A stretch of DNA of 32,014 nucleotides from Sphingomonadaceae bacterium (GTDB lineage Bacteria > Pseudomonadota > Alphaproteobacteria > Sphingomonadales > Sphingomonadaceae). The position numbers were made by a program, and so were the translations under genes. Below, piece by piece: positions 7,578-28,395 of this stretch. The stretch's first letter is position 1, and the number at the start of each line of letters is the position of its first letter. The notes under the pieces were generated by a model. The model saw nothing but the letters and a program-made list of their open reading frames with translations, searched no databases and was not told where the DNA came from. The stretch spans positions 1 to 32,014 of the forward strand of contig JAHRVR010000122.1 in NCBI GenBank assembly GCA_019090585.1, in the 5' to 3' direction.

Positions 7578-7991
7578 ATGGGCATTCTCGAAGCGTTGAT
7601 AGGTCCGATCTCATCCATCATCGACAAGGTCATTCCAGATCCAGAGGCGCGAGCGAAAGCGAAGCTTGAGCTGCTCAGCCTGCAAAATACAAGCGAACTG
7701 AAAACACTCCAGACACGGCTATCCACGATCGTCACCGAGGCAGGCTCAAAGGACCCATGGACGAGTCGTGCCCGCCCAAGTTTCCTCTATGTGATGTATG
7801 CCCTGATACTTTGGGCCATCCCGATGGGGTTGCTGGCCGCCTTCAACCCCGGCGCGTCCCAAGCCATTGGCAAGGGCATGACCGATTATCTGGGCGCCCT
7901 TCCCGAGCCACTCTACGCGCTCTTTGGCACCGGCTATCTCGGCTATGCGGTCGTGCGGCAGTGGGGCAAGGTCAAGGGCAGCGACCGCTAA
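7578..7991 (+). CDS. Holin of the 3-TM gene-transfer-agent-release type
   Basis: 137 aa. The N-terminal part (1-60) is amphipathic and helical (IDKVIPDPEARAKAKLELL). It is followed by two clear membrane helices, about 68-90 (FLYVMYALILWAIPMGLL) and 105-125 (PLYALFGTGYLGYAVVRQW), and a short basic tail. The N-terminal segment could supply a third, weaker one. The DPEARAKAKLELL and RARPSFLYVMYALILWA segments match, from memory, the GTA_holin_3TM family, which releases gene transfer agents or phage in alphaproteobacteria. No endolysin, spanin or capsid gene is adjacent, so it is a lone holin. It may be a detached part of a GTA release cassette or a prophage remnant. The stop is followed after 76 bp by aroQ. 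Confidence 0.8.
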   Translation: MGILEALIGPISSIIDKVIPDPEARAKAKLELLSLQNTSELKTLQTRLSTIVTEAGSKDPWTSRARPSFLYVMYALILWAIPMGLLAAFNPGASQAIGKGMTDYLGALPEPLYALFGTGYLGYAVVRQWGKVKGSDR

Positions 7992-14354: not shown

Positions 14355-15305
14355 ATGAACTTGCGCCCGCTTCATCCGGCCTTTGCCGTCTGCATTGGCA
14401 TATTGGCAGCCATGCCTGCCGCTGCGCATGCGGCTGGCGCCTTCAGCCAGATACCGCAAGCCCTGATTCGCGCGGCAACTTACGCACAGCCCGCTTGCGG
14501 CGTTGCTGTCGCACCCGCAAGCGGGCTCGTCCGCTCTGCAATTTCCGTTAGTGCATCAAGCAAGGCGTCGGCCATACTTGGTGGCAGGCCCAGTGCTCTT
14601 GAACGCATGCGCCTCCAGCAAGCAGGAAATCTTGCAACTGCGCAGACCGCGCCCACGACAACCAGACTGAGCCCTAATTCGATCCGGTCCGCAGCAATCC
14701 CCGCATTTTGCCAGAACCTCGCACCTTCGCGCGCGTCCTTTGCGCCGTCGCTGGGCAGAATGCGCGAAAGCACTCAGACTTCTGATGATTTCCTCGCCAG
14801 CAAACGAATCCGCATTCGCCGCACCAGCTTCGACGCCCAATGGCGCCGGGTACGCAGCCAGAGACTCTCCCGCTCGACTGTAGCGAGCCTTGCCGCAGCG
14901 GTCCCGGGCCGGGTCAACACAGCCACGCTCCATGCCGTCAATGCATGGGCCAATGCCCGCATCCGCTACGTCGAGGACATCGAACTTTATGGAAAGTCCG
15001 ATTACTGGGCGAGCGCGAGAACCACGCTGCGCCGCAGGGCCGGAGACTGCGAGGACATCGCGATTGCCAAGATGCAGATTCTGGCGGCACTGGGCGTCTC
15101 ACGCTCCCACATGTATCTGACCGTTGCGCGCGATCTGGTTCGCAATACAGACCATGCCGTGCTGATCGTGAAACATGGCCGCAAGCACTGGATGCTCGAC
15201 AATTCGACCAATCAGCTGCTCGACGCAAAAGACAGTCACGACTACCGGCCGATCATGTCTTTCAGCAAGTCAGGCAAATGGCTGCACGGATACTCGCGGC
15301 TTTGA
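14355..15305 (+). CDS. LapG-like periplasmic cysteine protease (bacterial transglutaminase-like, BTLCP)
   Basis: 316 aa. A signal peptide is visible at 1-27 (AVCIGILAAMPAAAHA), so the enzyme acts in the periplasm. Residues 28-150 are an Ala/Ser/Arg-rich extension. The catalytic domain (about 155-316) has the BTLCP triad: Cys232 in RRRAGDCEDIAIAKM, His267 in NTDHAVLIV, Asp282 in HWMLDNSTN. The acidic residues round the Cys (DCED) match the calcium site of LapG. In Pseudomonas, LapG cuts the N-terminal retention module off the adhesin LapA at a di-alanine and frees it from the cell. Here the gene converges on a type I secretion operon carrying a large adhesin with a suitable di-alanine site, which supports the same job. 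No lapD is in the window. Promoter and start codon have only a weak ribosome site. Confidence 0.88.
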   Translation: MNLRPLHPAFAVCIGILAAMPAAAHAAGAFSQIPQALIRAATYAQPACGVAVAPASGLVRSAISVSASSKASAILGGRPSALERMRLQQAGNLATAQTAPTTTRLSPNSIRSAAIPAFCQNLAPSRASFAPSLGRMRESTQTSDDFLASKRIRIRRTSFDAQWRRVRSQRLSRSTVASLAAAVPGRVNTATLHAVNAWANARIRYVEDIELYGKSDYWASARTTLRRRAGDCEDIAIAKMQILAALGVSRSHMYLTVARDLVRNTDHAVLIVKHGRKHWMLDNSTNQLLDAKDSHDYRPIMSFSKSGKWLHGYSRL

Positions 15306-15365: not shown

Positions 15366-16679
15366 TCAGCGTTCCGTCAACGCCTCATCGAACGCCCGCA
15401 GCACGGGTTTGAGCATGTAAGCCATCACGCTCTTCCTGCCGGTGATAATCTCTACATCACAGACCATACCGGGCATAATCGGCAATTTGCGGCCGTTTCT
15501 TTCAAGAAAGGCTCGGTCAGTTTCCACCGAGACGGTGTAATAAGCCTTCCGCTCCACTTCATCGTAAATGCTGTCGGCGCTGATATTTCGCACACGGCCT
15601 TTCAGTCCGCCGTAAATCGAGAAATCATAAGCTGTTATTTTCACATTGGCCGGATCGTTTTCCTTGATGAACGCAATGTCCTTGGGATCAACCCGCGCCT
15701 CAACCAGCAATTTGTCGCCAAATGGCACGACCTGCATGATCTTCTCGCCAGCACTGAGGAAACCGCCGACGGTCGTCACTTGAATGTCATTGACCAGTCC
15801 GGTCACCGGCGCACGAACCTCGCTACGCTCGACCGTAGCGGAAGCGCCTTTTATCGTTTCCTTGTTCACCGCAATCCGGGTGGAGATCTCGCTACGCTCG
15901 GCAAGCGCCTGCTGACGGAAATCGAAGCGCGCTTCGCTCAACTGTGACCGGGCTTCGGAAATCGCAGCCATGGCCCGTGCAACGCCCTGCCGGGCCGCGG
16001 CCAGCCTGCCCCTTGTATCCACAACATCGCGCTGCGCCGTCATCAGCTCGGTCTTGGGAATAATCCCCTTTTTGGCCAAGGGAGCGAGCATATCGACCTG
16101 CTCCTGTGCCAGTTTGATGCTGGCCTGAAGCGCGGAAACAGTCGCCTGCCCTTCCCGCAAATCCCGGCGGCGCTGTTCTACAACTGCGGCCAGAGCATCT
16201 TCCCGGCTACGCGCGGTGGCCCGGCGCATTTCGGAAAGCCTTGCTTCTTCCTCGCAGGCAGAGCCTTCCTGACATGCCTGCCCCTCCCCGGTGCCTTCCT
16301 GCTCAAGCCGGGACGCACGCGCTTGCAGGCGCTCGTTTTCCGCTTTCAGCGATCCAAGCTGTGCGGAAGATTGCGGATCATCGAGCCGAACGAGCAATTG
16401 GCCCTTTTTTACCATCTGGCCCGGACGCACGAGAATTTCCTTGATAGTCGAAGGGGAGCCCGCCTGGACAACCTGTACTTTGCTTGAAGGGATAACCTTG
16501 CCCAACCCGCGCGTCACTTCATCAACCTGAGCAACCGCAGACCACAAAATGACCAGCACCATGCCCAGTGCAGTCAGCGCGATAAGCTTGCGGCTGGCGT
16601 CCCAGTCCTCGACACCAAGCCATTCACGGCATTGTAGATGCGCATCATCGGACGGCAACCGTCTTTGGATTGCCTGCAA
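15366..16679 (-). CDS. HlyD-family type I secretion membrane-fusion protein
   Basis: About 437 aa. This adaptor bridges the inner-membrane ABC transporter and the TolC channel. Features: a short cytosolic start, one membrane helix (LIALTALGMVLVILWS), then EVTRGLGKVIPSSK, a lipoyl-like half (EILVRPGQMVKKGQLLVRLDDP), a long coiled coil, the second lipoyl half (VRAPVTGLVNDIQV) and a beta-barrel (VKITAYDFSIYGGLKG). It is LapC-like. No ATG fits: the family begins just before RRLPSDDAH. I chose the TTG at 16679, with AAGAGG directly upstream, overlapping the hydrolase gene by 35 bp; TTG 16658 or ATG 16736 are alternatives. Last gene of the operon. Confidence 0.92.
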   Translation of the reverse strand: MQAIQRRLPSDDAHLQCREWLGVEDWDASRKLIALTALGMVLVILWSAVAQVDEVTRGLGKVIPSSKVQVVQAGSPSTIKEILVRPGQMVKKGQLLVRLDDPQSSAQLGSLKAENERLQARASRLEQEGTGEGQACQEGSACEEEARLSEMRRATARSREDALAAVVEQRRRDLREGQATVSALQASIKLAQEQVDMLAPLAKKGIIPKTELMTAQRDVVDTRGRLAAARQGVARAMAAISEARSQLSEARFDFRQQALAERSEISTRIAVNKETIKGASATVERSEVRAPVTGLVNDIQVTTVGGFLSAGEKIMQVVPFGDKLLVEARVDPKDIAFIKENDPANVKITAYDFSIYGGLKGRVRNISADSIYDEVERKAYYTVSVETDRAFLERNGRKLPIMPGMVCDVEIITGRKSVMAYMLKPVLRAFDEALTER

Positions 16680-17721
16680 GCGCCTCTTGCCGGCTGGGCT
16701 GTGTAGACTCCCGCGTCTCGGCAACAATCTGGTCATAGCGAGAACTGCTCTGGGTCGGATCAGGTATCGACAGGCGCCACTGCTTGGTGACATCAAGCCT
16801 TCCACCAACATCATTCCCGGCATGACGGTCTGTAACATGGGGCGTCACTGTAAGGCCGGGAACCAGCGGCGCGTCTGCATCAGCGTTCACGCGGTCCCGC
16901 AAGGCCGCAAAATCGATGAAAGGCATACGCTCAACACCGCTATATTGGGCATTGAAAGCGGCCGAACGCCCCCAACCGCCCCGGAAGCGATAGAAGATGT
17001 GACGGCCAAGCTGGGTGATCTTTCCAAGCTGGAAGGCCCATTTCGGCAAGACATAATCGGCATGGTAATGCGTGGCCGTGCCCACGCTCTTCTCAACCCG
17101 CCCGGCCAGTGCTTCCTTTGCCGCCTTTCCCGCTTCACGCCATGGGCCCGGCATCGGCTTGCGCAAAAGTGATCCGTCGCATGTAAAACTGAACTGACAC
17201 CCTGTGCGCCGCTGCGATCCATCATAGACTACACCGCAAACGCTGGACGGGTAAGCCTTGTGTCGCAACCGGTTGAGGACGACCTGCGCTACTGCGCGCC
17301 GTCCCTCCAGCGGCTCATGGGCTGCCTCGTAATAGATAGCTTGCGCCAGGCATTTCTGCGCTGTGGCCTTGCTCGGCATGCCTGCCGCGCCAAGCTCAAA
17401 CGCGCCGATAGTCTCCACCGCAAGCCTAGAGATGGGGAGCTTCGCGTTGCGTTCCTGCGCGTCCCCGCCCTGAACAAGAATCTGTTCTTCGTCATCGACC
17501 GTCATGTCCGAAACTTCGCGCAGCTCTTCTTGTGTGATCGCTGACGCGGGCTGACCGCCCACAGTGAAAACGCCAGGAAACGCAAATCCGGCCACAGCGA
17601 GAACAGCCGTAGCGCCAACCGCCAGGACTCCTCCGGCTGCAAACAACCGCGGCTTGAGGGAGAGCTGCTTCTCCGAGCCGAATGCAGCATCCGCCTCATT
17701 TGTGGTTTTGCGTGGGATCAT
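16645..17721 (-). CDS. SleB-family cell-wall hydrolase within the secretion operon
   Basis: 358 aa from the ATG at 17719-17721, with AGAAGG upstream and 2 bp after the ABC gene's stop; the track's TTG two codons earlier is less likely. One membrane helix at about 27-50 (FAAGGVLAVGATAVLAVAGF) puts the rest in the periplasm. The Hydrolase_2 domain (about 120-240) shows CLAQAIYYEAAHEP with the presumed catalytic Glu, GRRAVAQVVLNRL, YPSSVCGVVY and TGCQFSFTCDG. This family contains spore-cortex lytic and Gram-negative peptidoglycan hydrolases of the lytic-transglycosylase type. Its gene is overlapped by HlyD and coupled to the ABC gene, so it is cotranslated with the secretion machine. It may open the wall for the channel or for the adhesin; this is inference. 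Confidence 0.9.
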   Translation of the reverse strand: MIPRKTTNEADAAFGSEKQLSLKPRLFAAGGVLAVGATAVLAVAGFAFPGVFTVGGQPASAITQEELREVSDMTVDDEEQILVQGGDAQERNAKLPISRLAVETIGAFELGAAGMPSKATAQKCLAQAIYYEAAHEPLEGRRAVAQVVLNRLRHKAYPSSVCGVVYDGSQRRTGCQFSFTCDGSLLRKPMPGPWREAGKAAKEALAGRVEKSVGTATHYHADYVLPKWAFQLGKITQLGRHIFYRFRGGWGRSAAFNAQYSGVERMPFIDFAALRDRVNADADAPLVPGLTVTPHVTDRHAGNDVGGRLDVTKQWRLSIPDPTQSSSRYDQIVAETRESTQPSRQEALAGNPKTVAVR

Positions 17722-17723
17722 GA

Positions 17724-19856
17724 TCAAACCTTCTGGCCCGCGCTGGCTGACGCGATGACCTCGTCACGCGGACCGTCGGCAACAATTCGCCCCTTGTCCA
17801 GTACGATCAGGCGGTCGCACACGCTGAAAAGCGCCGGGCGATGGGTCGAAATGATCAATGTCTGATCGGGTGTCAGGGATTGGGACAACCGATCCACAAA
17901 GAGTTTCTCTGTCTGGCTGTCCATCGCCCCGGTAGGCTCATCAAGGAACAAGAGCCGGGATGGCGAGACGAAGGCACGGCTCAAGGTCAAGAATGCCCTC
18001 TGCCCGCCCGAGAGGCGAATACCGCTCTCTCCGACGGCGCGGTCAAAACCGCCAGCGTCGCGAGACAAGAATTCGTCCGCGCCAATACGCCGCAATGCCT
18101 CGATCAGCTCCTCGTCGCTGGGACGGTCTGAACCAAGGCTGAGATTGTCCTTGATTGTCCCGCTGAACAAGTTGGCGTCCTGGCCGACGAACCGCATCGC
18201 CATTCGCAGATCCTGAGGCCTATATTGCTGACTGTCGATGCCGTCGACCAACAGCGCGCCTTCGCTTGGCTGATAGAGCCCGCACAGGATCCGCCCGAGT
18301 GTGGACTTGCCCGATGCGACGCGCCCGATGACGGCAATGCGTTCGCCCGGATTGATTTCAAGATTTAGTTCGCTGAGCGAAGGGCCCGATGCATCGGGGT
18401 ATGAAAAGCTCAGCCGCTCCAGCTTGAGGTGAGCCGAGCGCACTTGCGGCGCAACCGATGCGCTGCCCATGCGCCGCTCATCGCTTTCGCCCCAAAGTGT
18501 CTGGATCGATTCGAGCGCATGCAACGCCTGCTTTCCGCGCGTCAGCAGGAAGGCAAATTGCCCCGCCGGGGCAAGCGAACGCGAGGCCAGCATGACAATG
18601 GCGATGATCGCCCCCATCGTGATCTTGCCCGCAGCAAACAGGTAATAGCCGCCTACGACGAGGGATATGCTGGTGAGCTGCTGACACGTGGCCGCAAGGC
18701 CGATGGCCGTGGAACTGATATCGCGCAGCCGCCGTTCCGATTGCGCGCCAAGCTCTGCAAGCCGGCGCCAGCGCCCGAGCATGGTGCCTTCGCCAGCCAC
18801 ACTCTTTAGCGTTTCGATGCCGGAGATCGATTCGACCAGCAATGTCTGCTGCAATCCGCGGTCCGCCTGCGCCTCTATCGCCGCTTCGGACACTTTGCGT
18901 TGCAAGCGCAAACCCATCACCAGCATCGCTGCGGCTATGACGATTGGCACCAACGCCAGCCAGCCCGCGATATAAGCTATCAGTGCGATGAAGAAGACCA
19001 TGAAGAACAGATCGACGATCAGGACGATCGTCGTCGACGCGAAGAAATCGCGCACAATGGCGAATTCACTAACCCGGGCGACCATGTTTCCGGTGTAACC
19101 CTTGCGGGCAGCAAGCGGCGCCGAAAGCACTTTCGAATAGATTTTCTGCGATAGCTTGAGGTCCAGATCGCGCCCCAGTCCATCAAGCACCTTGGTCCGC
19201 GCGCGTCGCAGGGAATAATCCAGAATGAAGGCAATGAGAACACCCGAAGCCAGAACCCAGAGCGTGGCCTGCGCGCGGTTGGGGATCACCCGATCATAGA
19301 CGTTCATGGTGAACAGCGGCAGAGCCAGTGCCAGCACGTTGATGAGCATTGAAGCCACCAGCACCGGCCTGAAATCGTGGCGCAGCTTGTAAACTTCGCT
19401 CCAGAACCAGTGCGTTCGCGCATTTTCCTGCCACGGCTGGCCTTCGGACCGTATCGCCGTCGCATCGCCAAAAACCGTGGCCATCCAGCCGGTATATTCC
19501 GCCTGAACTTCTCCGGCAGGCTCCCACCGGGCTTCGTCCGACGCAGGCCGCCAGACCAACATGTCTCCTTCGCGATAGTCTTCAATGACGGCAAGAGCGC
19601 CGCCTTCAAGAGAAACGATCGCGGGATAGTGCTCAACCTGGCGTGGCAACTTGGGCAGTTTGCGCGCGTCGCAATTGAGGCCGAGAATCTCGGCAGCCGG
19701 CTCCACCTGATGCCGGGGGAGCTGGCCATCGCCGCCGCGTACAAGGCTGGAGAACAGTGTAGGCGCAAAACCCACGCCGAAGCGATCCGCCAACCTGTCC
19801 AGACAGGCGATCAGCGGATCGGCGTGGCGCGCTTCATGGTCTGGCCCATCGGCCAT
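17724..19856 (-). CDS. Type I secretion ABC transporter (permease/ATPase) with inactive C39-like domain
   Basis: 710 aa. It powers export of the adhesin through the HlyD and TolC partners. The N-terminal 130 residues resemble a C39 peptidase domain, but the catalytic Cys and His are not visible, as in LapB-type transporters, where the domain only binds substrate. The six-helix membrane part runs about 165-440 (LINVLALALPLFTMNVYDRVIP). The ATPase is at about 470-700: Walker A GRVASGKST, signature RLSGGQR, Walker B RLLFLDEPTG, H-loop STHR. Start ATG has AAGAGGG upstream. Its stop is 2 bp from the hydrolase start. This is the closest family to the LapB/LssB transporters. Confidence 0.95.
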   Translation of the reverse strand: MADGPDHEARHADPLIACLDRLADRFGVGFAPTLFSSLVRGGDGQLPRHQVEPAAEILGLNCDARKLPKLPRQVEHYPAIVSLEGGALAVIEDYREGDMLVWRPASDEARWEPAGEVQAEYTGWMATVFGDATAIRSEGQPWQENARTHWFWSEVYKLRHDFRPVLVASMLINVLALALPLFTMNVYDRVIPNRAQATLWVLASGVLIAFILDYSLRRARTKVLDGLGRDLDLKLSQKIYSKVLSAPLAARKGYTGNMVARVSEFAIVRDFFASTTIVLIVDLFFMVFFIALIAYIAGWLALVPIVIAAAMLVMGLRLQRKVSEAAIEAQADRGLQQTLLVESISGIETLKSVAGEGTMLGRWRRLAELGAQSERRLRDISSTAIGLAATCQQLTSISLVVGGYYLFAAGKITMGAIIAIVMLASRSLAPAGQFAFLLTRGKQALHALESIQTLWGESDERRMGSASVAPQVRSAHLKLERLSFSYPDASGPSLSELNLEINPGERIAVIGRVASGKSTLGRILCGLYQPSEGALLVDGIDSQQYRPQDLRMAMRFVGQDANLFSGTIKDNLSLGSDRPSDEELIEALRRIGADEFLSRDAGGFDRAVGESGIRLSGGQRAFLTLSRAFVSPSRLLFLDEPTGAMDSQTEKLFVDRLSQSLTPDQTLIISTHRPALFSVCDRLIVLDKGRIVADGPRDEVIASASAGQKV

Positions 19857-19895: not shown

Positions 19896-21293
19896 TCAGG
19901 GCACCGTGCGGTACTGAAGCTCCGCAGGTGCGGAAGGCCCGTAGTTATACTCCTCGCGCTCATTCTCACCGGCCCCCGCACCCGGCTCGATCTCGAGGCC
20001 GGAAAGGAAACGGTTGGTCGCCGCGAGTGTCTGATACTGGGCGAATATCCTTGAAAATTTCGCCGACTCCAGACGGACTTGCACACTGTAGCGCGTATTC
20101 TGTGCATCCAGCACATCGAGCAGCGAACGTCTCCCGACGTTGAACTGGCTGCGATAGGATAGCAGCAAGTCATCACTGACCGTGCTCTGGCGGGCAAGTT
20201 GCTCGGTCACGCGGGTCTGCGTCTTGAGCTGCGACCAGGCATTGCGAACATCTTCCTCAGCCTCGCGCTCCACTTCATGAAGCCGATAGCGAGTCCCGCT
20301 CGCGCGGCGCACCATCTCCTGATACTTCGCGCGATTAATACCACCATCGAAGATGTTCCAGCGCATGAAGACACGGGCCTGCAGGTCGGTTGTTTCCCCC
20401 CTGAAGCCGTCGATATCCTCACCGTATCGGCCCCTCGCATCGACGCCAATCTCAGGATAAAGATCGCCCTTGGCGCTGCGGGACAGCGCATGCGCTGCGT
20501 CGACATCAGCCTTGGCCTCGCGGACTCGCGGATTGTTGGCACGTGCAATCCCGACAGCCTCGTCAAGGTTGGTCGGCATCCGGGCCGCGAGTTCCGGCGG
20601 CAACTGGACCTGGGAAATGTGGAGACCAGTCAGCTTTTGCAGTGCGTTCTGCGATTCTGTCAGCGACTGTTCGGCCTGGGTCTGGCGAACAAGTGCAGCC
20701 TGAAGACGTTCCTCAGCCTGCTGCTGGTCAGCAATTGAGATCGACCCCTGTTCAACACCGCTGGACAAGTCGCCCACCAGCACCCGGTGGAAACCGACAT
20801 TATCCTGACTGGCCGCAACAACGCGTTGCTGCAACAGCACGCCAAGGTATTGGCGCGCGACCTGCAATGCCACGAACTCGGAGCGTTCGAGGACACGAAG
20901 CGATGCCCCGTCGACCCGCGCGGCCTGACGGTGCAATTCACCGCGGCGCCGGCCAAAATCAAACATAACCCATTCCGCGCTGCCTTCGGCCCCGATCGGA
21001 TAGAGTTCATTGTCGGCAATGCCGAGCGATCGCCTTGTCGGGTTCTTCAGGCTGCGGATTCCCGCAGACCCTTCAATGTCCGCACGTGGCAGGAACAGGC
21101 CCTGTGCCTGCTTGCGTTCGAATTCGATCGCTTCCTTGTTGTATTGCGCCTGCGCGATGCTCGGATTTGCGCTCATCGCAACCGCAATCGCTTCTTCGAG
21201 GCTCACGGCTCCGCCGCCCTGGGCAAGTGCCGGCATGGCAGTTCCGGAAAGCAGAACTGCGGCACCGGCGGCGAAGAGTTTGTTCTTCAGCAT
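19896..21293 (-). CDS. TolC-family outer-membrane channel of the type I system
   Basis: 465 aa with a signal peptide (LFAAGAAVLLSGTAMPALA). Duplicated TolC repeats are visible: SLEEAIAVAMSANPSIAQAQYN near residue 30 and DEAVGIARANNPRVREAKADVDAA at about 230-255, each opening a long alpha-hairpin. The C-terminal half has the typical SYRSQFNVGRRSLLDVLDAQN. An acidic C-terminal tail (AGENEREEY) follows. AAGGAG precedes the ATG, and the OmpA gene ends 20 bp upstream. This is the LapE-like outer-membrane exit duct, in the operon between the OmpA and ABC genes. Confidence 0.94.
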   Translation of the reverse strand: MLKNKLFAAGAAVLLSGTAMPALAQGGGAVSLEEAIAVAMSANPSIAQAQYNKEAIEFERKQAQGLFLPRADIEGSAGIRSLKNPTRRSLGIADNELYPIGAEGSAEWVMFDFGRRRGELHRQAARVDGASLRVLERSEFVALQVARQYLGVLLQQRVVAASQDNVGFHRVLVGDLSSGVEQGSISIADQQQAEERLQAALVRQTQAEQSLTESQNALQKLTGLHISQVQLPPELAARMPTNLDEAVGIARANNPRVREAKADVDAAHALSRSAKGDLYPEIGVDARGRYGEDIDGFRGETTDLQARVFMRWNIFDGGINRAKYQEMVRRASGTRYRLHEVEREAEEDVRNAWSQLKTQTRVTEQLARQSTVSDDLLLSYRSQFNVGRRSLLDVLDAQNTRYSVQVRLESAKFSRIFAQYQTLAATNRFLSGLEIEPGAGAGENEREEYNYGPSAPAELQYRTVP

Positions 21294-21313: not shown

Positions 21314-22018
21314 TTACTGAACGGTAACTTCAACCCGACGGTTCGTCGGATTGCGTTCGCCGTCCAAGGTCGGCACTTTCGGCTCGCCTTCACCCCGGCC
21401 AGATACTGCCATCTGGCCAGCGGCAAGCCCCTTGGCTCCCAGAAGGTCAGCAATCGCGTTGGCGCGGGCGACAGAAAGAACGTCATTATAAGCGTCACTG
21501 CCCGAGCGATCGGTATGCCCGGTCACGACAAGACCGGACCATCCACAGCCGTTGAAATTGTTCACGACCGAATCCAGAGTTTGCGAGGCATCGACCCCCG
21601 GCACGGCGCTGTCCCAATCGAAGAAGACAATACCGGCGACGGGCTGACTACACAACGTATCTGGCACCAGCGGTGGAGGCGGTGGCGGCGGCGGAACAAA
21701 TTTCATCCGCTCTGCAGCATCGACGCATTTGCCAATGCTGACCGGATCCTTGGTGCTGCTCTTCAGAAAACCAAGGGCGATGCCGCACTGGGCCTTTGCC
21801 TGACTGGCCCACATATACTGGGAAGTATCCGCCGATACGACGCCTGCATCCTGAGTCAGGGCAAGTGCCGCATCATAGCGCTGCTGAACTTCCCCACGCA
21901 GCGAGGCTATGCCCATGGCCATAAGGTCATCCGCCGTTGTCTGCGCCGCTGCCACACCGGGCAACGCCAGAGCTATCACGGCAGCGCCCAGGGCCATGCC
22001 TGAACGGTTAGATCGCAT
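21314..22018 (-). CDS. OmpA-family peptidoglycan-binding protein
   Basis: 234 aa. Signal peptide 1-25 (AAVIALALPGVAAAQ), a short alpha-helical region (30-108), an unbroken run of eight prolines as a linker, and a C-terminal OmpA domain (about 125-234). The domain shows FFDWDSAVP, VTGHTDRSGSDAYNDVLSVARANA and the closing ERNPTNRRVEV, with the Asp and Arg that bind diaminopimelate. No beta-barrel, so it is a periplasmic or OM-attached wall linker. Ribosome site AAGGGGACTGAAA. It is the second gene of the adhesin operon, 32 bp after the adhesin stop, which is not a standard place for an OmpA gene in Lap operons. Confidence 0.92.
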   Translation of the reverse strand: MRSNRSGMALGAAVIALALPGVAAAQTTADDLMAMGIASLRGEVQQRYDAALALTQDAGVVSADTSQYMWASQAKAQCGIALGFLKSSTKDPVSIGKCVDAAERMKFVPPPPPPPPLVPDTLCSQPVAGIVFFDWDSAVPGVDASQTLDSVVNNFNGCGWSGLVVTGHTDRSGSDAYNDVLSVARANAIADLLGAKGLAAGQMAVSGRGEGEPKVPTLDGERNPTNRRVEVTVQ

Positions 22019-22050: not shown

Positions 22051-25000
22051 CTAGGCAGCGGCCGCAGCCGCACTTAACTCCTCGGCCATATCATTGAATT
22101 CAAATGCTCCCTGGCCAACAGCAGGCACGCTATCGACGTCAGTTGCAAGCAGTAACTGCAACCCATCAATACTGCCTTCCGTTGAATCGGCCTCCCCGCT
22201 GCCAAGTTCGTCGATCAAGTGATCAACGAAGTTCTCCCCCTCAGCCTCGACGATTGCTTCACCAAGATAGTCGAGATCGCCGGAGGCGTCTTCGACCGGC
22301 GTTACCTGTGAGAGCAACAGCAGGCTCTGCATGACTTCGCCGCCATCCGAGTTGCCGCCGGAAACAAGGTCGCTCGATGCCTCCACATGGCTTTCCGAAG
22401 GCGATTCGTCTCCGGAGCCGCCGGAATAATGATCGATAAGATCAGCCAATCCAGCATCCGACATTTCGCCATCGGAAACTTCCGAGGAAGAGCTTCCGCC
22501 ATCGCCAGCGAGTTCGCCGGTGGCATCGCCGAGATATATCTGCGAACTGATACCCGCCTCTTCGCCACCATCACTGGCGACGGTTTCGGACAGCGCCGCC
22601 ATGGGCACGTCCCGGGGCGAACTGTCAGTTGTAACCGTTCCCTTTGCCTCCGCATCAGGTGCCTCGACCAGCAGCGCGCTCGCCATCACGCCCGCTGCGA
22701 TCGCAGCATTGGTAATTTCAAGGCTGCGTGTCTCGATCTTCTGCGCGCCGACTGCAAAGCTGGCATCGGCCAGAACGCCAGTGGCGCCGCCAGCCGTTGT
22801 AAAGGCAGCCTCTCCATGGACGGTCACATCGCCATCCGCAGCACTGTAGCCCTCGCCATCCGAGGTCAGCTCAATCGAGACGATGCCAAGATCATCCAGC
22901 GAGCGGAACTCGCCTGCATCAGTAACGCCATCGCTATCCGCATCCTGCCAGACGCCAAAGTCGCCCCATGCCGCATCGGCAGAGGTCAGAACGCCATCGT
23001 CATTGCCGTCGTAGGCTTCGCGCACGCCTTCGAGGTCAGTCGCAGCGCCGGGCGCGTCGTCGGAAAAGACAATGTCCAGACCCTGCGCCGTCTGACGCGC
23101 CAACAGCCCGTCATCTGCACCGGCCCAGGCCGTCGCGACCAGACCTGTCCCATAATCGAAGGTTACACCTGCATCCTGCGAAAGGAATTCAACGCCGTCA
23201 CCATCGAGATCGAGAACGACGGGATTCACCACCACCGGATTAAGGGTGATATCCAGATCGCTGGTCGCAGTCTTGTCACCGTCTTCGTCCATAATCAGGA
23301 GGGGAACGGAGAACTCGACCGGGCTTTCGGTTTCGACAGCAGCACCAAAGCCACCGAACTTGATAGAATTACCGCCGTCTAGCGGGTCTTCATTCGTGGC
23401 TTCAAGCGTCGTGTATCCGTCCGCGGTGTAGATCGCGATTGTCGTCGTCAGCTGTTGATTGCTGTTGCCGTTGGCGCCTGTAACATTGGTGACCAGGACG
23501 CTCAGGCCATCAAGCTGATAACCGAAAGTCTCGCCGCCGACAGACACGTTTTGAGATAATCCCGTGGGCGTCAAAAGCGTGCTCTCGTCATTATTGTAGA
23601 AAATGACGATATTGGTGATCGCCTCTTGATCACCGTCTCCGACGACGTTGTTGGCATCGTCAGCCCCTTCGTCATCGAAAGCTTCGAAGCGCATGGTCGT
23701 ACCAGACGTCGATTGGCGGAAGCTGATTGTTGCCCCGTTGGTCGTCCAATGTTCGTCGAAAGAATGGCCGTTGGTTCCGCCGATCACGTAGTTGGAGTTC
23801 GGCGGGCTTCCCGTAAGATCGACAACATAATCGAGACGGAACCCCTCGCCAGGATCAACACTTTGACCGCCCCCCACACCGCCCAGGATATTGCTGGTAT
23901 TGATTGTATCGGCTGATAGCGGCGTGATCAGCACGTCCTGGCTGTTATCGTTGACAGGAGCATCACCGCCGCCGTCACCCTGCCCGGTCGGAACGATTCC
24001 GAACCAGGCTCCATTGCCGCCGACAAGATCAAAGGCCCCAGGGTCATAGTCGATCTGGACGTTGCTATCGACCGTGCCGAAGGTGTCATCCATGTCGATG
24101 GTGTAGTTCGAATTCGCCTGGTCGAGCGTAATTGTGAAAACCGTATTCGCGCCGACTTTGCCATACAAAATCTGCCCACTCGCGGACACGTCATAAATGA
24201 TTGGCTGGAAGCCCGAGGTGAGGCCACTGCTGGCTCCTTCAAGGCTTGGATCGAAAATGACGGAGCCTCCGTCGGCACCGATATTGTTGAGGATGTTGCC
24301 ATCCCCGGGCGCGACATCGAGACTGCCCATCACCGTGCCGTCCACCGAATTTTCAAGTTCGGCAGCTTCGACAACGAAAGAAGACGGCGCATCGTCATCG
24401 AACGTGATCTGAAGCAACACATCTGAAGCCGACGGAGAGCTATCGAAGTCAACGACGTTAAACTTGATCGTCGCAACTGCATCATTGACGGTCAGGTTCT
24501 CGGTATCGTCGTCCGATTCTCCGTCACGCGTTGCATGCAGAACATTATCGAGCAACTCGACCGTATAAGTGCCGGCTGCCGTATCGGTCAGCGTCACTTT
24601 GAATAAGTCCCCGCGTGGTCCTGTCGCGGTCAGTATCGTGCCCCCGCCAGACAGTGCAAAGGAGACCGTCTCCTGACCCACAGTTGGAGTGGCGGTCAGC
24701 ATGTCGGAATGGAAACTCACCGTCACCGGCGTATCGCTGCCCGGCGAGAAATTCAGTGCGCCAGAGAACGTCTTCTCGCTCGAAGCAAGACCATCGGCAT
24801 CGTCATCCACCGTCCCCGATGACTGATCCTGGCCTTCATTCGTGTCGAGGTCATTCACAGTCGAGTTTGGATTCCCGCCAGGGAGCCCATCATCGTCGAC
24901 GAGCGCATAAGCCGTTCCGCCCGAAGGCGTTGAATCTTCGCCAATATTTACAGTTATTGTCGCGGTCGATGGATCGCCGTCGCCATCGGTAATCGTATAA

Positions 25001-28000
25001 GTGAAGCTGTCTGCGCCCACCGCGTTCTGATTTGCCGTGTAAGTGAAAGTGCCATCGTCATTGTAGACCGCCGTGCCCTGACTGGGACCGCTGGCGACGA
25101 CGACCGAGCTGGGTATAGCGTTAGTCGTATCCACTCCGTCCGCGCCAAACACGTCGTTAACAAACGCAGAGTTGATCTGATAGGCAACGCCTGCCTCTAC
25201 GTTAAAGATCCCGTCATCGTTGGCGGTTGGCACGTCGTCGACAACCTGAACGACAAGCGTATCTGCGTCCGAATCGCCATCGATGTCAGTCAGACTGACT
25301 GCGAGGTGATCAAATAGCGAGTTCTGGCCATTTGCATTCGAGTGCGCTTCGTTGTCATCCAGCGTGTACTCGTAAGTGATCTCGCCAGTGCCCGCGTTGT
25401 AACCGGTAAACTCGATCGTATTGCCAAGCTCAGACGTCGTGCCCGTGGCATTGGCCTGAAAGACACCGTTGATGAATACGTTGATCCCGTCGACAACAAC
25501 ATCATCGACACCGTCCGGTGCGGAAATGAAGAAACTGCCCGTCACGGTCGTCGATTGAGACTGATCTGATCCCTCAGGGATCACCAGATCATCTTCGTCA
25601 ACTATCGCATCCCCGCCTTGCAGCTCGGGCACCAATCCCGTGATCACCGCCGGATTGTCCGGTGGAGGCACGAAAGTATCCCCAACCAGAATGGTCAGCG
25701 TGGTCGTTGACAAATCGCCATCGGAATCACGGATAGAATAGACAAATACGTCCTGCACATCCGCGGTCACGCTGCCAGCCTGGTAGGAATAGCTGCCATC
25801 GGCATCCAGCGTGAGTGTGCCGTAGAGCCCGACAATCACTCCGCCCGTTCCGGTTGTTACGGGCGTAGTCGTATCGCCGCCAGCGGCGCGCACGCCAACA
25901 ACACCGCCCGCAGGCGAAGTCACATCGGGGCCATCCGCGCCGAACGCATCGTTGGGCAGGACATTGCCCAGGACAGTGCCCAACTCATCGACACTGTTGA
26001 AATCCGCACGGGCAATCGGAACATCGTCGACGATATCGACTGTGATCGTGCCCTCGATCACATTGCCATTGTCGTCGCTCGCTTCATAAGTGAAGACGTC
26101 TTGCGCCGGCGCTGTCTCGTGGCCGTCATTGGCATGCGGCAGATTGTCGACAGGAGTGGTCAGCGTGTACGTGTAGCTGCCATCGGCATTGATCTGGATA
26201 AGACCGTAAGTGCCTGTCGCAGTCCCGACGATTGCAAAACTTGTTGCACCGGGCACGTCGAGCGCACCCGAAACCGTTTCCAGTGTATTTCCCGGGGCCG
26301 ATCCCGTCACGATACCGGGTGCCAGATCGTCGCCGGTCTGGAAGAGATCCAGCGACGGCTCGTACACGGTCACGTTCTCGTCATCGGCAATGAGCGTAAC
26401 ATCGTCGACCGTAATCGTCAGTGTCGTGGTCGAACGGTCTCCGTCATCATCCTCGATCGTGTAGACAAAGATTTCCACTACATCTTCGGTAATGGTGCCC
26501 GGCGCCGTGACGTAAGTATAACTGCCATCGGCATTGAGGATCAGCGTGCCGTAATCGCCGAAGATTTCGGTCCCGGTCCCGGTCGTGACATCAGTTGTCG
26601 TATCGCCATCAGCCTTTCGCACGCCGATAACGCCGCCCAAAGGCGCAGTCGTTGCCGGGCCGTCAGCACCGAACGCGTCGTTGGGCAGGACATTGCCTAC
26701 AGCAGTGCCGCCTTCGCTGACGGTATCGACATCGGCAGTGGCGACCGGGATGTCGTCAATAATATCGACTGTGATGGTGCCTTCGACAGTGTTGCCGTTC
26801 GCGTCCGTCGCCAGATAAGTGAAGACATCGCCAGCTGGCTGGGTTTCCGTCCCGTCATCCGCATGCGGCAGATTGTCGAAACGGGACGTCAGAGTATAGA
26901 TAAAGTTCCCATCATTATCTATTGAAATTAAGCCATAAGTTCCTTCACTGGAGCCAACAATCTCAAATGCAGCCGCACCTGCGATCACCACGGTGCCACC
27001 AACAGTTTCATCGGTGCTGCCCGGTGTCCGCCCGGTTGTGTCTCCGGGCGCAAGATCGGCGCCATCCTGATTGAGATCCAGCGCCGCCTCATCAACAATA
27101 ACGCCAACATCATGCTGGAGCAGCGTGATCGCGGAAATATCGATAGTGAGCGTGGTGGTCGAAATGTCCCCCTCACCCTCATCGCCATCTTCGATCGTAT
27201 AGACAAATACGTCGACCACATCGGTATCGATAATGTTCGCGTCAGACTTGTATGTGTAACTGCCGTCAGCGTTGAGCACCAACGTACCGTAAAGACCGCG
27301 TATTTCGGTGCCTGTGCCAGTTTCGACGGGAGTTTCCGTATCGCCATCAGCAGCACGGACGCCGATTACACCGCCCTCAGGCGCAGTCGTTGCAGGACCG
27401 TCAGCACCAAACTCATCATTGGGCAGGACATTCCCGGTGGCCGTTCCGCCTTCGCCGACAGAATCGAAATCTTCAACGGCGGTTGGAATGTCATCGACGA
27501 TCTCAATCGCCAGAACATCCTCGGCAACGTCACCATCGGGGTCGGTCACAACGATGGGAAATGAAACCTCCGAACCGCCGGGATCAAGCGTATTGTCGTT
27601 GAGCGTATACTCGTAAGTGATCGATCCGGTCTTGGTGGCATCATCGAAGGTATAACCAGTGATGATCAGCGTGCCCACTTCATCAGACGACACGACCTGC
27701 GGCAACCCGTTGGGATCGATGACAACGCCATTGATCGTGACCGTTTCGACACCATCAAGCGAGGTGAAATCGATCGTGTTAGCCGTGATCTCCACGTCGC
27801 TTTCATCCTGCGAACCAGGAGATTCAGAATCGCGGATGACTGTGCTGGAAGCAAGACCGGCCTCCTCCACGCGGGTACCGGAGGCAATTTCGCCAACCCG
27901 CGGAACAAAAGTAATTTCCGGCTCATTGTTGATCGCCGAAAAAACTTCCTCGTCCTCGCTCTCGGGGAACGCAAGCTCAGTATATGGAAGCAGATTGCCC

Positions 28001-28395
28001 AAGCCATATGCAGGCTGGATCGGAGCGGCTGGATCAAAGAAATTCCCGCCGGAACTCTGCGGATTACCAGCAGCGGGCTGCGGCTGGCTTTCATTGAGAT
28101 AGGCAGCAAGGTTGAGCGGCGGAACAGCCACACCATCGACAACCAGAACCGGCACAAATATGGCGCCATCTGGGATGATATAAGTCTTGCCTTCTACTTC
28201 GATGACAAGATCGCGCCCGCGAACGGCAACGTCGTCAAGCGTCGCACCTTCGGGCAGCGCCACGATATTATCGGCATCGGGAAGCAGCGGAATTGCACCG
28301 GCACGGCCTGTCGCAGCTGCACCACTTGCGATTTCCAGCCCGAGATTGGAGTTCTCGGTATCGCTATCTCGATCAACGGGGCGTTCGTAGTCCAT
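22051..28395 (-). CDS. Giant LapA-like adhesin with retention module (type I secretion substrate)
   Basis: 2114 aa, acidic, no signal peptide, as expected of a type I substrate. N-terminus (about 1-130): a compact Val/Ile-rich, retention-module-like domain (TYIIPDGAIFVPVLVVDG) ending at PQPAAGNPQ; the di-alanine is at 108-109, a plausible LapG-type cut site. Next comes a T1SS-143 type repeat (about 195-310), then tandem VCBS/cadherin-like units (GNVLPND.FGADGP; TYGLI.I.ADGSYTYTLT) to about 920, a second T1SS-143 unit (FTGYNAGTGEITYEYTLDDN) and several more Ig-like domains. Towards the C-terminus are DLDGDGVEF and EF-hand-like loops (DGNDDGVLTSAD, DADSDGVTDAGE). No GGxGxD RTX repeats are visible. 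The tail ends in seven residues that are almost all Ala. First gene of the operon. Confidence 0.92.
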   Translation of the reverse strand: MDYERPVDRDSDTENSNLGLEIASGAAATGRAGAIPLLPDADNIVALPEGATLDDVAVRGRDLVIEVEGKTYIIPDGAIFVPVLVVDGVAVPPLNLAAYLNESQPQPAAGNPQSSGGNFFDPAAPIQPAYGLGNLLPYTELAFPESEDEEVFSAINNEPEITFVPRVGEIASGTRVEEAGLASSTVIRDSESPGSQDESDVEITANTIDFTSLDGVETVTINGVVIDPNGLPQVVSSDEVGTLIITGYTFDDATKTGSITYEYTLNDNTLDPGGSEVSFPIVVTDPDGDVAEDVLAIEIVDDIPTAVEDFDSVGEGGTATGNVLPNDEFGADGPATTAPEGGVIGVRAADGDTETPVETGTGTEIRGLYGTLVLNADGSYTYKSDANIIDTDVVDVFVYTIEDGDEGEGDISTTTLTIDISAITLLQHDVGVIVDEAALDLNQDGADLAPGDTTGRTPGSTDETVGGTVVIAGAAAFEIVGSSEGTYGLISIDNDGNFIYTLTSRFDNLPHADDGTETQPAGDVFTYLATDANGNTVEGTITVDIIDDIPVATADVDTVSEGGTAVGNVLPNDAFGADGPATTAPLGGVIGVRKADGDTTTDVTTGTGTEIFGDYGTLILNADGSYTYVTAPGTITEDVVEIFVYTIEDDDGDRSTTTLTITVDDVTLIADDENVTVYEPSLDLFQTGDDLAPGIVTGSAPGNTLETVSGALDVPGATSFAIVGTATGTYGLIQINADGSYTYTLTTPVDNLPHANDGHETAPAQDVFTYEASDDNGNVIEGTITVDIVDDVPIARADFNSVDELGTVLGNVLPNDAFGADGPDVTSPAGGVVGVRAAGGDTTTPVTTGTGGVIVGLYGTLTLDADGSYSYQAGSVTADVQDVFVYSIRDSDGDLSTTTLTILVGDTFVPPPDNPAVITGLVPELQGGDAIVDEDDLVIPEGSDQSQSTTVTGSFFISAPDGVDDVVVDGINVFINGVFQANATGTTSELGNTIEFTGYNAGTGEITYEYTLDDNEAHSNANGQNSLFDHLAVSLTDIDGDSDADTLVVQVVDDVPTANDDGIFNVEAGVAYQINSAFVNDVFGADGVDTTNAIPSSVVVASGPSQGTAVYNDDGTFTYTANQNAVGADSFTYTITDGDGDPSTATITVNIGEDSTPSGGTAYALVDDDGLPGGNPNSTVNDLDTNEGQDQSSGTVDDDADGLASSEKTFSGALNFSPGSDTPVTVSFHSDMLTATPTVGQETVSFALSGGGTILTATGPRGDLFKVTLTDTAAGTYTVELLDNVLHATRDGESDDDTENLTVNDAVATIKFNVVDFDSSPSASDVLLQITFDDDAPSSFVVEAAELENSVDGTVMGSLDVAPGDGNILNNIGADGGSVIFDPSLEGASSGLTSGFQPIIYDVSASGQILYGKVGANTVFTITLDQANSNYTIDMDDTFGTVDSNVQIDYDPGAFDLVGGNGAWFGIVPTGQGDGGGDAPVNDNSQDVLITPLSADTINTSNILGGVGGGQSVDPGEGFRLDYVVDLTGSPPNSNYVIGGTNGHSFDEHWTTNGATISFRQSTSGTTMRFEAFDDEGADDANNVVGDGDQEAITNIVIFYNNDESTLLTPTGLSQNVSVGGETFGYQLDGLSVLVTNVTGANGNSNQQLTTTIAIYTADGYTTLEATNEDPLDGGNSIKFGGFGAAVETESPVEFSVPLLIMDEDGDKTATSDLDITLNPVVVNPVVLDLDGDGVEFLSQDAGVTFDYGTGLVATAWAGADDGLLARQTAQGLDIVFSDDAPGAATDLEGVREAYDGNDDGVLTSADAAWGDFGVWQDADSDGVTDAGEFRSLDDLGIVSIELTSDGEGYSAADGDVTVHGEAAFTTAGGATGVLADASFAVGAQKIETRSLEITNAAIAAGVMASALLVEAPDAEAKGTVTTDSSPRDVPMAALSETVASDGGEEAGISSQIYLGDATGELAGDGGSSSSEVSDGEMSDAGLADLIDHYSGGSGDESPSESHVEASSDLVSGGNSDGGEVMQSLLLLSQVTPVEDASGDLDYLGEAIVEAEGENFVDHLIDELGSGEADSTEGSIDGLQLLLATDVDSVPAVGQGAFEFNDMAEELSAAAAAA
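25690..27480 (-). repeat. Tandem 729-738 bp repeats inside the adhesin gene
   Basis: The marker encoding NVLPND recurs at about 25951, 26680 and 27418, giving periods of 729 and 738 bp (243 and 246 codons). Each period has an A part (GNVLPND.FGADGP ... ADGSYTY ... STTTLTI) and a B part (DLAPG..TG ... GTYGLI ... DNLPHA.DG ... GTITVDI). Order is A-B-A-B-A. The identity seems high enough for unequal recombination. Confidence 0.85.

Follow-up and report, generated by a model that had tools for sequence, protein, structure and literature searches.

A Lap-type adhesin secretion locus of sphingomonads with a conserved SleB-family cell wall hydrolase encoded between its ABC and HlyD genes

Several envelope-spanning machines are encoded together with a dedicated lytic transglycosylase, as is the case for VirB1 of type IV secretion systems (T4SS), EtgA and IagB of type III systems (T3SS), and FlgJ of flagella. 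For T3SS and T4SS, dedicated enzymes that cut peptidoglycan are established (Zahrl 2005, cited in PMC6403190). Unlike T3SS, T4SS and flagella, type I secretion systems (T1SS) are treated as crossing the wall without a dedicated enzyme. The closest described counterpart of the sphingomonad locus analysed here is the Lap system of Pseudomonas fluorescens and P. putida (LapA-LapEBC-LapG-LapD), and the relatives of that system in Shewanella (Bpf), Vibrio, Legionella (RtxA) and Desulfovibrio (Dvh) are also alike. The shared components are an LssB-type ABC protein, an HlyD adaptor, a TolC channel, a LapG-type BTLCP protease and a giant adhesin, the last with an N-terminal site of the [TP]AAG type at around residue 108. 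The sphingomonad locus differs in its convergent LapG gene and in an additional gene for a hydrolase, which lies between the counterparts of lapB and lapC and overlaps both; the LapD N-terminal domain (PF16448) was undetected in the host genome, which is a weak negative.

The locus lies in the window, i.e. the whole stretch of 32,014 nt that was analysed (contig JAHRVR010000122.1 of GCA_019090585.1, a 249-contig draft assembly of a Sphingomonadaceae bacterium). The operon is on the minus strand and begins with a giant adhesin of 2114 aa (nt 22051 – 28395) carrying Big_9/cadherin-like repeats (PF17963, PF17803), followed by an OmpA-family protein with a peptidoglycan-binding domain (nt 21314 – 22018; PF00691, 1.4e-12) and a TolC-family outer membrane channel (nt 19896 – 21293; PF02321, 1.1e-43; TIGR01844). 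The next gene specifies an LssB-type, LapB-like T1SS ABC permease/ATPase (nt 17724 – 19856; TIGR03375, 706.6 bits against a cut-off of 693.1), and is followed by the SleB-type cell wall hydrolase (nt 16645 – 17727, starting at ATG 17721 or TTG 17727) and a LapC-like periplasmic adaptor of the HlyD family (nt 15366 – 16658, start uncertain; TIGR01843, 1.5e-101). Convergent with the operon, on the plus strand, is a LapG-type BTLCP cysteine protease (peptidase C93; nt 14355 – 15305; PF06035, 3.4e-21). It matches NF045674 at 3.1e-24, under the equivalog cut-off, and its C-H-D triad is discernible (GDCED, DHAVL, LDN). Outside the operon, the window carries a holin of the gene-transfer-agent type (PF11351, nt 7578 – 7991). 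The same genome has a second LssB-type ABC (L026, on contig G000:C94), with neither hydrolase nor LapG nearby.

In the N-terminal domain of the adhesin, residues 107-110 read PAAG and are succeeded by SSGGNF; the two together are a candidate for the region of retention and of cleavage by LapG, the PAAG being similar to the LapG site of LapA in both position and sequence. This N-terminal region was found again in 13 of the 39 operon loci, and many of the remaining loci stop short of the 5' end of the adhesin gene. The combination of an LssB-type operon, a LapG-type protease and a PAAG adhesin points to an adhesin system of the Lap-like kind that includes a hydrolase as an extra component. Judged by its ABC-HlyD-TolC-adhesin operon, adjacent LapG and AAG-type site, the locus is a Lap-type (two-step) T1SS adhesin system, with cleavage of the adhesin predicted. 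For the c-di-GMP receptor of the LapD type, which controls LapG in Lap systems, PF16448 gave weak matches in 3 of 121 genomes and none in that of the window, and the control genomes likewise gave none. In the same search, sphingomonad LapG-type proteases occurred without a detectable LapD N-terminal domain, a result to be read with that outcome of the controls.

The genes around the hydrolase are tightly joined. The start given in the earlier note, 2 bp past the ABC stop, is correct for the ATG at nt 17721, which lies 2 nt beyond the stop codon (nt 17724 – 17726). A TTG at nt 17727, in the same frame, overlaps that stop by 4 nt (reading TTGA), and it may be the actual start, because the ABC/hydrolase junction is a 4-nt in-frame start-stop overlap in 34 of 36 homologous loci. 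At the other end, the HlyD ORF of the window is open back to nt 16838, implying an overlap with the hydrolase of about 190 nt. While that exact overlap is a mechanical product of ORF listing, coupling at both ends of the hydrolase gene, as proposed earlier, is upheld by the relatives, in which HlyD starts at ATGA or GTGA and an in-frame 4-nt overlap with the hydrolase is found in 30 of 38 loci. The window does have an ATGA at nt 16648, but in a reading frame other than that of the HlyD body, which suggests either a small indel in the draft assembly or an HlyD start at TTG 16658. The corollary that hydrolase and transporter are expressed equally does not follow, as overlap implies coupling, not stoichiometry. 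An apparent extra gene in the ABC-HlyD gap of another locus (L051) was rejected, the sequence being repeat-like with no convincing ORF.

The family assignment of the hydrolase made from the bare sequence was confirmed. The ORF at nt 16645 – 17721 (minus strand) matches PF07486 (Hydrolase_2) at 7.5e-26 (91.1 bits; curated cut-off 27) and aligns to the SleB catalytic-domain structures 4f55 (1.9e-9) and 4fet (9e-9). It matched no family other than Hydrolase_2, had no RTX-type domain, and scored 60.8 bits against the SleB equivalog TIGR02869, below the cut-off of 236.5. The Hydrolase_2 domain occupies residues 136-244 and is separated by a linker of roughly 70 residues from an N-terminal transmembrane helix at about residues 27-47. 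An AlphaFold model (four sequences) also places the helix at 27-47, with a poor mean pLDDT of 38.7. A hydrophobic N-terminal segment is found in all 39 operon hydrolases, beginning at residues 6-35, and is probably an uncleaved membrane anchor. Among 36 aligned operon hydrolases the Glu of a YYEA motif is invariant, as is the active-site region around it, and this residue aligns with the Glu region of SleB, where the catalytic glutamate is reported to be essential for lytic transglycosylase activity (PMC12331253). The operon enzymes share the catalytic domain and Glu region of the spore cortex-lytic enzymes SleB and CwlJ (PF07486), but differ from them in being Gram-negative and membrane-anchored, in having no PG_binding_1 domain, in standing in a secretion operon and not in a germination context, and in a private C-terminal motif. 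In the window this motif reads DVGGRLDVTKQWRLSIPDP (about residues 304-322). Its core, D-x-GG-x-x-D, is present in 39/39 operon hydrolases and in none of the paralogues, counted on 24 full-length sequences; the longer form, extending through W to P, is present in 38/39. A second type of Hydrolase_2 paralogue occurs in sphingomonads (L087, L088, L090, L092, L095, L096, L098), without an exact YYEA (WYEAG and similar) and with a distinct conserved C-terminal region.

The earlier note had called for a neighbourhood survey of this ABC family, on the view that the hydrolase should prove conserved rather than absent from most orthologous operons, and conserved it is. Of 401 Sphingomonadaceae genomes surveyed, 85 carry an ABC orthologue (threshold E <= 1e-160), and in 84 of these the hydrolase lies directly downstream on the same strand. 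The two genes co-occur almost perfectly in this set of 401 (Fisher 7.5e-82, with no correction for phylogeny). The ABC gene is patchy within at least 14 genera (g1, g3, g16, g17, g23, g38, g39, g43, g70, g71, g75, g78, g90, g96), and the hydrolase is present or absent together with it, except in genome G538. These counts come from whole-genome surveys; a scan of contigs with the hydrolase as query yielded only four loci. That the hydrolase is a chance neighbour was rejected, the same gene order in 84/85 orthologous operons being far beyond chance. It is not a general feature of LssB loci either: among 69 such loci in 120 genomes, 19 carry an operon-type hydrolase, while the other 50 are without it. 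A LapG gene within 10 kb accompanies 18 of the 19 hydrolase-bearing LssB loci vs 0 of the 50 others (Fisher test uncorrected for relatedness). Other Hydrolase_2 paralogues are found in nearly every host genome and might substitute for the operon enzyme.

The exceptions are few. In G538 (L063, contig G538:C191), the only genome with an ABC orthologue and no hydrolase, a clean ATGA joins ABC to HlyD; only a weaker LapG-like match was seen in this genome, on a different contig. The hydrolase of G523 is without an ABC match since the contig end cuts the ABC gene, and G504 has a hydrolase locus with a truncated ABC. G706 (L066, contig G706:C5) has no OmpA, TolC or ABC gene at the locus; an in-frame fusion connects the N-terminal portion of the adhesin with the hydrolase, giving an ORF of 2034 aa that reflects either a deletion or an assembly fault. 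Lastly, G570 has a second hydrolase copy, in which the match crosses one stop codon.

Phylogenetic analysis places the 39 operon hydrolases on one side of a branch (support 96/91) and 23 paralogues on the other, the tree excluding L003, a very divergent paralogue that distorted it. The ABC partners of the hydrolase likewise form a clade (SH-aLRT 100), the nearest outside relative of which, L048, has no hydrolase. The ABC of G538 is nested inside the hydrolase-bearing clade with moderate support (SH-aLRT 90), which indicates that the hydrolase can be lost. In other alphaproteobacterial families none of 15 sampled homologous ABC-HlyD loci had the hydrolase (a LapG-like gene was near about half of them), and a sparse survey of the class found no hydrolase outside the family scoring as operon-type, the best outsider (G182) being without the motif. 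The simplest reading of the trees is a single recruitment of the hydrolase in the sphingomonad lineage, long retention within the unit, and one loss. Dedication of the enzyme to its transporter, as first proposed, is therefore retained for the orthologous operons only; its absence from the 15 loci elsewhere and its loss in G538 argue for a lineage-specific dedicated accessory, and against a requirement that T1SS or large adhesins have in general.

The position of the hydrolase between the two inner-membrane subunits, the two-sided coupling, the anchor, the private tail, the intact active site and the co-inheritance together favour an enzyme working at the exporter. We consider it somewhat more probable than its opposite that the tethered hydrolase, likely a lytic transglycosylase, opens the wall locally for a long-lived ABC-HlyD-TolC-adhesin assembly in this Lap-type system. 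It would be held in the inner membrane by its single N-terminal helix, and coupled translation would produce it beside the ABC and HlyD subunits. Acting as a lytic transglycosylase, it would cleave glycan strands at the site of the exporter alone, and the resulting gap in the peptidoglycan would let HlyD and TolC meet. The assembly, plugged by the retained adhesin N-terminus, would persist in the gap. Docking to the exporter would most plausibly be through the C-terminal D-x-GG motif specific to the clade, which would keep the hydrolase local. Enzymatic activity, docking and a need for wall opening are all presumed in this scheme; of the roles considered for the enzyme, the one first suggested, making way through the wall for the TolC-HlyD bridge, is the most plausible. 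Since relatives export without it and G538 has lost it, the hydrolase may raise efficiency or suit the sphingomonad wall, and need not be strictly essential.

A less probable alternative, though one that accounts for several of the observations, is that the hydrolase, co-expressed with the adhesin system, thins or remodels the wall to suit an attached lifestyle (e.g. in the cell cycle or in biofilms) and is not needed for exporter assembly. This agrees with the homologous exporters that run without a hydrolase in several Alphaproteobacteria, with the loss in one sphingomonad (G538), and with the persistence of the hydrolase locus in G504 and G706, where the ABC gene is truncated or missing. 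However, the exact placement between the genes of the two inner-membrane subunits, together with the overlaps with both neighbours that persist across the whole clade, fits a physical partner better, and the private C-terminal motif also suits a partner more than a co-regulated passenger. It is improbable that the hydrolase instead trims the peptidoglycan, or otherwise prepares it, to allow the OmpA-like protein of the operon to anchor the TolC-adhesin complex to the wall, a function in retention and positioning rather than passage. An OmpA-family peptidoglycan-binding protein does share the operon in most loci compared, where its gene is kept 5' of TolC, and the adhesin has a LapG-type retention region, but the OmpA gene stands towards the adhesin, distant from the hydrolase, and tblastn did not find it in four loci with a hydrolase (L024, L025, L072, L074), where divergence may hide it. 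Still less probable is a non-enzymatic role, in which the protein is a SleB-derived wall-binding scaffold that positions the exporter: glycan binding is a property of SleB-type folds and the private tail could serve as a scaffold, yet the YYEA Glu and its active-site surroundings are invariant in the aligned set. That the hydrolase is itself a T1SS substrate, an exported lysin, has only its operon location in its favour and was rejected as very improbable, given the N-terminal membrane anchor in 39/39 and the lack of any RTX-type domain beside Hydrolase_2.

Among known systems, the sphingomonad hydrolase is also close to VirB1, EtgA/IagB and FlgJ, each of which likewise cuts the wall and is encoded together with a machine that spans the envelope. 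The sphingomonad enzyme is of a different fold family and its machine is a T1SS; it too is encoded with the secretion machine and co-inherited with it (84/85), the two being jointly present or absent in at least 14 genera. In the open-access literature, dedicated wall enzymes were found for T3SS, T4SS and other machines and none for T1SS, and the portion of a large T1SS review that was consulted does not mention lytic transglycosylases. A Lap-type T1SS with a dedicated hydrolase thus appears to be new, as judged against open-access literature only, so that priority is not certain. The full proposal, on which our judgement is evenly poised, is that this is the first T1SS with a peptidoglycan hydrolase of its own, a SleB-family enzyme that would have been recruited once in sphingomonads, would be tethered to ABC-HlyD by its private C-terminal motif, and would cut at a long-lived, adhesin-plugged exporter.

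With this conserved hydrolase, the way in which T1SS cross peptidoglycan becomes directly testable: the gene is defined, its catalytic residue is a target for mutation, the C-terminal motif is a candidate for docking, and nature provides systems that have the enzyme as well as systems that lack it. The analysis also describes a Lap-like adhesin system that is widespread among sphingomonads. The findings suggest that the sphingomonad adhesin exporter, having its own wall-cutting enzyme, opens the wall for itself.
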